Part shown: in pieces, positions 25,222 through 26,527 of the stretch
Position numbering within the stretch: position 1 is the stretch's first letter
Layout: every line of letters begins with the position of its first letter
Assembly: GCA_018824305.1 (NCBI GenBank)
Contig: JAHJGM010000046.1
Coordinates: forward strand, 1-36,395
Direction of reading: 5' to 3'
Source of the DNA: a bacterium
GTDB taxonomy: Bacteria; Campylobacterota; Campylobacteria; Campylobacterales; Sulfurimonadaceae
Length of the DNA: 36,395 bases
Position numbers and translations under genes: made by a program
Notes under the pieces: model-generated
Databases searched by the model: none
What the model saw: only the letters and a program-made list of their open reading frames with translations
Told to the model about the DNA's origin: nothing

Positions 25222-25845
25222 CTATACTTTCACACTTTCCCAGAAAAAATCCACATGCTTTTCAAACTGCGTAGAGAGATTTGTCGTAGATTCATTATCT
25301 ATTCTTAACAGCGTTACATGTAGGCGTAGATAGAATAGGGGCGATAAAAACTCATTAGCCATCAGTAACGGGTCTGATGATCTTACCAAGCCCTCTTGCA
25401 TCATCGTGAAGAATACAACCGATAAAGCTTTCATGTTTTTATTGTGAAACTCGTTTATAAATCCATCTCTTAACTGTTTATTTTGAAATAGTTCTATCAT
25501 CAGTATTCTAAACAGGCTCTCTTTTGCTTTATCGAATGTGATAAGTTTAAACTCCATTGCGAACTTGTGTAGATACGATTTTGGATTACTTAACTGAGCA
25601 GGGCTTAAAACAGGGCTGTCCTCTTTATTAAACGGTGTACTGAATATCTCCGAGGCGACAGAGAGAAATATATCCTCTTTGTTCTTAAAATGATTATATA
25701 AAGCACTCTCACGTATGCCAACTTCCGCTGCTATCTTTCTAACCGATGCATTCTTATATCCAAGCTCTGAAAAAAGCTTCATCGAAGCGTCAAGTATCTT
25801 TTTCTTTGTAGAACCAGTTATTACAATATCCCTATTTTGCGACAT
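25222..25845 (-). CDS. TetR/AcrR-family transcriptional regulator
   Basis: 207 residues with a classical N-terminal TetR helix-turn-helix (about 10-58): KKILDASMKLFSELGYKNAS, VRKIAAEVGIRESALYNHFK and NKEDIF. The C-terminal ligand domain is all-helical and not assignable. The start ATG at 25845 has AAGG about 9 bp upstream. The gene converges on the oor operon. Four near-identical operator-like sites lie directly upstream, between it and rnpB, so autoregulation is likely. No efflux pump, fatty-acid or oxidoreductase gene sits next to it, so its target is not given by context. A TTACATGTA copy (25314) is read as Leu-His-Val (RLHVTL). Confidence 0.88.
   Translation of the reverse strand: MSQNRDIVITGSTKKKILDASMKLFSELGYKNASVRKIAAEVGIRESALYNHFKNKEDIFLSVASEIFSTPFNKEDSPVLSPAQLSNPKSYLHKFAMEFKLITFDKAKESLFRILMIELFQNKQLRDGFINEFHNKNMKALSVVFFTMMQEGLVRSSDPLLMANEFLSPLFYLRLHVTLLRIDNESTTNLSTQFEKHVDFFWESVKV
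25314..25323. repeat. TTACATGTA repeat copy (tetR-like gene)
   Basis: TTACATGTAG on plus. On the gene strand it reads CTA-CAT-GTA, Leu-His-Val. Confidence 0.5.
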
Positions 25846-25869
25846 TTTAAGGCCTTTTTGTCTATAATT

Positions 25870-25981
25870 ATTAACGGTTGTTCATATGATATAAAAAGAA
25901 AGTGAACATGTGTTAATGTAGATATAATTATATATGAACAACTGTTAATTTAATCTTAGAAAGACAAGAACAGTCGTTCAT
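25870..25981. promoter_or_regulatory. Array of four evenly spaced operator-like sites
   Basis: Four 15-bp copies: O1 25870-25884 (minus strand) TGAACAACCGTTAAT; O2 25903-25917 TGAACATGTGTTAAT; O3 25935-25949 TGAACAACTGTTAAT; O4 25967-25981 AGAACAGTCGTTCAT. Each is an imperfect dyad of GAAC-N4-GTT(A/C). Centres are 33, 32 and 32 bp apart, about three helical turns, so all sites face the same side of the DNA. The array fills the gap between the TetR-type gene and rnpB, and that regulator is the natural candidate ligand. Confidence 0.7.
25923..25932. promoter_or_regulatory. Overlapping divergent -10 boxes between operators O2 and O3
   Basis: The palindrome TATAATTATA contains TATAAT on plus (25923-25928) and on minus (25932-25927), so one short element could serve both tetR and a transcript towards rnpB. 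Sites O2 and O3 flank it closely on both sides, an arrangement suited to repression of both directions. Confidence 0.4.
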
Positions 25982-26030
25982 TTTTTATAAAAATATTAAA
26001 CTTATATCTTTATTTAGTTATTATTACGCA

Positions 26031-26351
26031 GGTACAACAAGTTGATGCTTGAACACCGTTCAAGAGGAAAGTCTGGGCTACCGTAAGACAGGGTTCCATT
26101 TAACGAATGGCCATAGTAATATGAGGGAAAGTGCAACAGAAAATAGACCGCCGTTTGAAAAAGCGGTGAGGGTGAAAAGGTGGTGTAAGAGACCACCAGT
26201 GTCTATAGTAATATAGATAGCTTGTAAACCCAACCCGGTAGCAAGAAACAGATGGTTAGCGTCTTACATTGCTACTGTTTCGCTAGAGTTGATCTGTAAA
26301 GATCAAAGTAGATTAATATCACTATAACAAAACCCGGCTTACCGTTGTACC
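26031..26351 (+). ncRNA. rnpB: RNase P RNA (catalytic subunit, bacterial type A-like)
   Basis: The ends GGTACAAC (26031-26038) and GTTGTACC (26344-26351) pair as the P1 helix. The universally conserved segments are present in order: GAGGAAAGTCTGGGCT after a short hairpin, CAACAGAAAATAGACCGCC, GGGTGAAAAGGTGGTGTAAGAGACCACCAG, and the 3' block ACAAAACCCGGCTTACCG. It matures the 5' ends of tRNAs together with RnpA. In the first conserved region GTCC reads GTCT. A short hairpin TAGCCT...GGGCTA follows at 26361-26379 but lacks a T tract, so the terminator is uncertain. The mature ends may differ by a few bases. From here to the next gene (26528) I see nothing further that I can name. Confidence 0.93.
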
Positions 26352-26527
26352 TACTTTATCTAGCCTTTTTACAGGGCTAAACCACTTAGACTCATATCAT
26401 CTAATATTAATATTTGAAAATCATTTGACATCGTAATCCAATGGAAAGAGTACGGTTTTTCGTATATCTTTTTTTCAAGAGAATTTACATTATGTTAACC
26501 AAAATATATAATGAAAGCCAAGACCTT

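Follow-up and report, generated by a model that had tools for sequence, protein, structure and literature searches.

Why should rnpB, a housekeeping RNA gene, seem to bear a repressor array? The question is raised by a stretch of 36,395 nucleotides from a member of the Sulfurimonadaceae (contig JAHJGM010000046.1 of assembly GCA_018824305.1; the whole stretch is called the window here), in which several operator copies separate rnpB from the gene of a TetR-family regulator. A preliminary description of this DNA had offered two answers: either the RNase P RNA is regulated here, or an efflux or metabolic target was lost or lies elsewhere.

The regulator and its operator array

The regulator gene tetR (25222..25845, minus strand) encodes a protein of 207 amino acids that, according to Pfam, a structural model and a phylogenetic tree, is an orthologue of a dif-linked TetR of the Campylobacterales. 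It scores 57.6 bits with Pfam TetR_N (cut-off 24) and weakly with TetR_C_7, and its AlphaFold2 model (pLDDT 81.9) aligns over the whole chain with TetR-family structures such as EthR and FadR (VIA-align, Z ~17). The predicted N-terminal HTH and all-helical C-terminal domain place it in the TetR/AcrR family. A closer assignment was not obtained from the curated FadR, MtrR and RefZ families, for which all scores were far below the cut-offs. Membership of RefZ was rejected (NCBIfam RefZ, 45.1 bits against a cut-off of 180), the likeness being at the level of the HTH, and the structure search returned generic TetR neighbours (EthR, FadR and others), with neither SlmA nor RefZ among the matches listed.

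The four near-identical operators of the preliminary description are real, and can be refined to copies of a 16-bp palindrome with the consensus ATKAACANNTGTTMAT, which start at 25870, 25902, 25934 and 25966 and thus have a period of exactly 32 bp; the whole cluster, between tetR and rnpB, covers 112 bp. On the minus strand they read ATGAACAACCGTTAAT (operator 1, tetR-proximal, 25870..25885), ATTAACACATGTTCAC (operator 2, 25902..25917), ATTAACAGTTGTTCAT (operator 3, 25934..25949) and ATGAACGACTGTTCTT (operator 4, dif- and rnpB-proximal, 25966..25981). The even palindrome supersedes an odd one of 15 bp, TGAACN5GTTCA, which was in the wrong register and gave no conserved matches. The constant spacing of about three helical turns described earlier stands, whereas its range of 32-33 bp was an artefact of the 15-mer reading. 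Two further details were borne out: the shared divergent -10 flanked by two sites corresponds to a TATAAT on each strand between operators 2 and 3 (25923-25928, plus; 25927-25932, minus), and the last site, placed roughly 50 bp before the RNase P RNA, ends 47 bp before the start of rnpB. The TATAAT on the minus strand is the putative -10 element of tetR and is nearly abutted by operator 3.

Orthologues of this TetR (43-93% identity) occur in about half of the 121 family genomes; those in 80 named contigs stem mostly from Sulfurimonas and its relatives, Hydrogenimonas and unnamed MAGs. Orthology was settled by the tree, which is clade-structured and fits vertical descent. Absence of the sites beside orthologous tetR genes, which the preliminary description had named as an outcome that would speak against it, is not what is seen: the array was found at 80 of the 81 tetR loci inspected (the 80 named contigs and the window). 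In the window's genome the tandem pattern AACANNYGTT-N21-23-AACANNYGTT occurs at the array only, with zero control hits, and together with the presence of the array at nearly all tetR loci this argues that the sites are not due to chance. The lone orthologue without an array, in Sulfurimonas sp. OB5 (L131, identical to G076:C69), lies 67 kb from dif.

Most arrays contain four sites (67 loci); ten contain three, two contain five, and one contains two sites and is cut by a contig end. Among 230 operator intervals, 222 measure 31-34 bp (32 bp in 170 cases, 31 bp in 39, 33 bp in 12 and 34 bp in one), and the intervals outside this range (22 bp and 43 bp, three cases each; 63 bp, two cases) are also near whole helical turns. 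This spacing is good evidence that TetR would bind on one face of the DNA, and it supports the earlier proposal of a cooperative same-face array of TetR dimers. At 48 of 75 loci with standard geometry, TATAAT starts one base past the second operator from tetR, indicating that the operators flank and overlap the tetR promoter; in the window, TATAAT follows the third operator, one period farther from tetR.

Many TetR regulators are autorepressors, and because the array covers the promoter of tetR, with 16-bp palindromes around a conserved TATAAT, autorepression is very likely here as well. In its fold and in the operator within its own promoter the regulator resembles the autoregulated TetR repressors QacR, EthR and FadR. 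These, however, control a neighbouring transporter, enzyme or pathway, whereas the neighbours of tetR vary among lineages and include no conserved adjacent efflux or metabolic operon. The lost efflux target suggested earlier is therefore unnecessary.

A genome search for other targets, also suggested in the preliminary description, led almost exclusively into genes. It was carried out by pattern and on fetched stretches, with weak or degenerate operators lying below the reach of the pattern. In the window's genome and in a closed relative (G016), 55 of 56 single strict sites are inside ORFs of >=120 amino acids; exact single-site matches in the window's genome are intragenic, and the pattern scan revealed neither a second array nor a convincing intergenic single site in either genome. 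Across genomes, the tandem pattern occurs at tetR only, apart from rare chance-like matches. As far as the pattern reaches, the array thus appears to be the only strong address of TetR. Two side observations concern similar sequences. Three imperfect palindromes lie between a NifX-like and a DUF134-like gene at 1865-1957 of one locus (L052, G000:C39) and may either belong to another regulator or represent weak targets of this TetR. Genus g8 (L036, L038) has extra operator copies ~140 bp upstream of the array; they lie close to where a divergent lipoprotein gene begins, and this gene is a possible lineage-specific regulated target.

The array, dif and the chromosome terminus

What the earlier reading of the locus had missed is the replication terminus. 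A dif site of the XerCD type, TTTCAAGAGAATTTACATTATGTTAACC (26473..26500, plus strand), is 491 bp away from the array and follows rnpB after 115 bp. It differs by one mismatch from the published dif of Sulfurimonas denitrificans (PMC2731167) and is the sole match in the genome at <=3 mismatches, with none expected by chance in the window. In the window, cumulative GC skew reaches its maximum at 26311. Between 25141 and 26528 the gene strand bias flips from mostly forward on the left to mostly reverse on the right, a switch to be expected where replication ends.

The same coincidence is found in relatives. In G016, the GC-skew peak of a 400-kb stretch (1130155) and the array (1129516) are ~0.5 kb apart. 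Carnoy and Roten placed the dif of S. denitrificans, TTTCAATAGAATTTACATTATGTTAACC, at 1122264 of 2201561 bp (PMC2731167), and in G094 the match to this sequence is at 1122255-1122278 and the array at about 1121284-1121388, 0.9 kb from the published coordinate. The array is located at 0.460-0.498 of the circle from dnaA in every one of the 21 closed chromosomes, which represent three families, some chromosome lengths being rounded to 0.1 Mb for this calculation; four genomes (G098, G088, G216 and G123) are exceptions by raw coordinate only and conform after dnaA is located.

A scan of the fetched stretches around 101 arrays, some of which are the same place entered twice, revealed dif or difH at 68. 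All 52 dif and all 16 difH sites are located beyond the array as seen from tetR, and each type has a single orientation. The gap between array and dif ranges from 41 to 3510 bp (median 469, n=52), and the gap to difH is 44-49 bp in 14 of 16 cases and 74 and 86 bp in the other two. About a dozen of the 33 arrays without a match have less than 0.9 kb of upstream sequence. At four loci (L099, L207, L072 and L078) a half-degenerate dif with one half intact occupies the usual place of dif upstream of the array, and at least two of the genomes concerned (G064, G010) have a full dif ~10 kb away; elements integrated at dif are the likely cause. Where one contig carries both the tetR array and dif (54 family genomes), the two are a median of 863 bp apart, and in 39 of these genomes they lie within 2 kb of each other.

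At the level of sequence, dif is therefore the constant partner of the array, over both Xer systems (XerCD/dif and XerH/difH) and over changing neighbours (rnpB, xerH, a lipoprotein gene, murA). The group containing these bacteria is reported to show very low synteny (PMC3847290). Because dif stays constant in such a group whatever the Xer system or neighbour, and because no regulon is apparent, we prefer a reading in which the conserved, autoregulated TetR and its operators form a nucleoprotein landmark at the terminus of the chromosome, next to dif, and we assign it a probability of about 0.5. The sequences show dimer-sized palindromes at ~3 helical turns over the tetR promoter and an array between tetR and dif in fixed orientation; from this we infer binding, cooperativity, autorepression and a role at the terminus, which the TetR protein may mark or organise. 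Cooperative binding of TetR dimers along one face of the DNA would occupy the array and shut down tetR, such that the level of the protein would depend on how far its own array is filled. The bound complex could then serve as a terminus landmark for late steps, for which the positioning of the terminus, FtsK/Xer dimer resolution and a coupling to the site of division are candidates. Speaking against a landmark, dif is 5-80 kb away in ten of the 54 genomes, the gap of 41-3510 bp in the XerCD group argues against a fixed complex with Xer, and TetR is absent from many dif-bearing relatives, which also shows that it is dispensable.

The strongest rival to this landmark is plain autoregulation with conserved placement, in which an autorepressor has been kept near dif by shared descent, its array would provide steep self-repression, and its real targets would be a small gene nearby or weaker sites in other places. 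Autorepression is common among TetR regulators, the operators overlap the tetR promoter across lineages, and the clade-structured tree is consistent with vertical descent. We nevertheless place this explanation on the unlikely side, since neighbours change between families and dif stays, the array keeps one side and orientation with respect to dif (68/68), and the two genomes scanned contain no other strong intergenic sites.

The short gaps to difH, and those of 41-43 bp to dif in one XerCD genus, could also point to an accessory sequence for Xer recombination that would give dif synapsis directionality, as the ArgR/PepA-bound arms of ColE1 cer do. The accessory arms of cer, of ~180 bp (PMC5357621), and those of psi are likewise bound by regulator-type proteins beside a Xer site, binding being predicted in the present case. 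They differ in that they belong to the plasmid site and engage ArgR, PepA or ArcA instead of a TetR protein, and in that the distance varies here in the XerCD group. Across most of the Sulfurimonadaceae, 313-3510 bp separate the array from dif, and rnpB frequently occupies this gap; moreover, recombination at chromosomal dif is generally controlled by FtsK (PMC5357621). An accessory role is therefore improbable.

rnpB and other neighbours of the array

In the window lineage rnpB (26029..26357, plus strand; RNase P RNA class A, Rfam RF00010, 238.7 bits) lies between the array and dif. Its putative -10 element TATTAT (26019..26024, plus strand) has a -10-like counterpart at the same place in relatives, in which rnpB was located by profile, a simple regular expression having missed most copies. 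The rnpB and tetR genes are divergent in Sulfurimonas and in the genus of the window. A comparison of the tetR-rnpB gap among relatives, which the preliminary description had recommended, is informative in two ways. The array persists where rnpB adjoins it, at a gap of 41-48 bp or, in about a dozen loci, of 32-38 bp, that is about one helical turn less, and the tree demands at least six switches between these classes; they look like helical phasing and would leave room for a local effect on rnpB. Yet the array is also kept without rnpB. In genera with rnpB away from tetR, no operator was found in the rnpB promoter, and tetR retains its 3-4 sites.

The divergent gene in other families varies. 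The tetR gene and its array are divergent from xerH in families f4 and f18, near murA in f10 and near mutS in f3, and genera g8 and g11 have a divergent lipoprotein gene. In all three f18 loci (L226-L228), difH is located between the array and xerH, and in two of them (L226, L228) tetR lies between xerH and an RNase Z-like gene.

These bare rnpB promoters and the arrays beside other genes indicate that rnpB is not the conserved partner. Hence, rnpB as conserved target was rejected, and the idea that RNase P RNA is regulated here is not supported as a conserved function, as the operators stay with tetR. In a genome without this TetR (G005), rnpB also adjoins dif, at a distance of 20 bp, which suggests that rnpB and the array are both residents of the terminus. 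If the array is a terminus landmark, rnpB would be a mere resident between it and dif in the window lineage and its relatives, and the terminus location would explain why a housekeeping RNA gene seemed to bear a repressor array.

A narrower version, in which TetR at operator 4 (centre ~52 or 42 bp upstream) would stimulate or hinder rnpB transcription in Sulfurimonas and relatives, draws on the helical gap classes with their repeated switches and on the fact that, besides tetR, no gene but rnpB is at the array in the window's genome. We consider it quite doubtful: the core promoter of rnpB is left uncovered by operator 4, the array stands at a similar distance (41-49 bp) from dif or difH in lineages that lack an intervening rnpB, and the distribution of the operators follows tetR. 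Least probable is a relic of an IMEX-like element that once integrated at dif and brought the regulator and its operators: dif attracts such elements (PMC5357621) and the half-intact dif remnants lie near four arrays, but no integrase or cargo is found beside tetR, and the conservation of intact operators across several families, together with the clade-structured tree, already favours vertical descent with purifying selection on the operators.

Comparison with known terminus and landmark systems

Among known systems, RefZ of Bacillus subtilis is a close parallel to the proposed terminus landmark: a TetR-family protein with few motifs (RBM) at conserved chromosomal positions that serve as a landmark (PMC6657595). 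The RBM motifs keep their places relative to oriC and have a function in sporulation, whereas here a single array in the tetR promoter is found beside dif, at a conserved position (0.46-0.50 of the circle, 21/21) that is at ter and not near oriC. SlmA, the nucleoid occlusion factor of Escherichia coli, is also a TetR-family DNA-binding protein that makes use of chromosome position, but its dozens of sites (SBS) avoid the terminus (PMC6657595); nucleoid occlusion of this type was rejected because the pattern scan found a single array, located at ter. Terminus-specific DNA binding, predicted here, is a property of MatP of the enterobacterial Ter macrodomain. MatP belongs to another protein family, and its matS sites are spread over ~800 kb round the terminus (PMC7188993) as compared to one cluster of 112 bp; a system of dispersed Ter motifs was therefore rejected too, since the pattern scan found one cluster only and the protein is a TetR. 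ZapT of Caulobacter comes from a transcription-factor family as well and prefers ter DNA (PMC7188993), but it is a MerR-type protein for which some ten ChIP peaks, the majority within genes, yield no clear motif. If the terminus reading is true, a TetR protein with an array in its own promoter would follow a logic similar to that of plasmid centromeres which also act as autoregulatory operators.

According to the literature, MatP and ZapB are restricted to enteric bacteria (PMC7188993), and the link of the terminus to dimer resolution and division outside enterobacteria is a largely open question on which the array may bear. We tentatively propose, with somewhat less than even confidence, that the Campylobacterota possess a terminus-marking system of one autoregulated TetR and a single phased array locked beside dif, whichever Xer recombinase is used, as a functional counterpart of MatP/matS or RefZ/RBM. 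Among the papers searched, none connects a TetR protein with dif or rnpB in this group. One strong genomic array fixed beside dif occurs in cultivable Sulfurimonas, and the proposal is thus directly testable. The TetR array can also serve as a marker for finding dif in this group. Two dif-like sites per assembly are present in G034, G046, G052, G047, G001 and G104, and such pairs suggest Xer-exploiting mobile elements or plasmids with dif.
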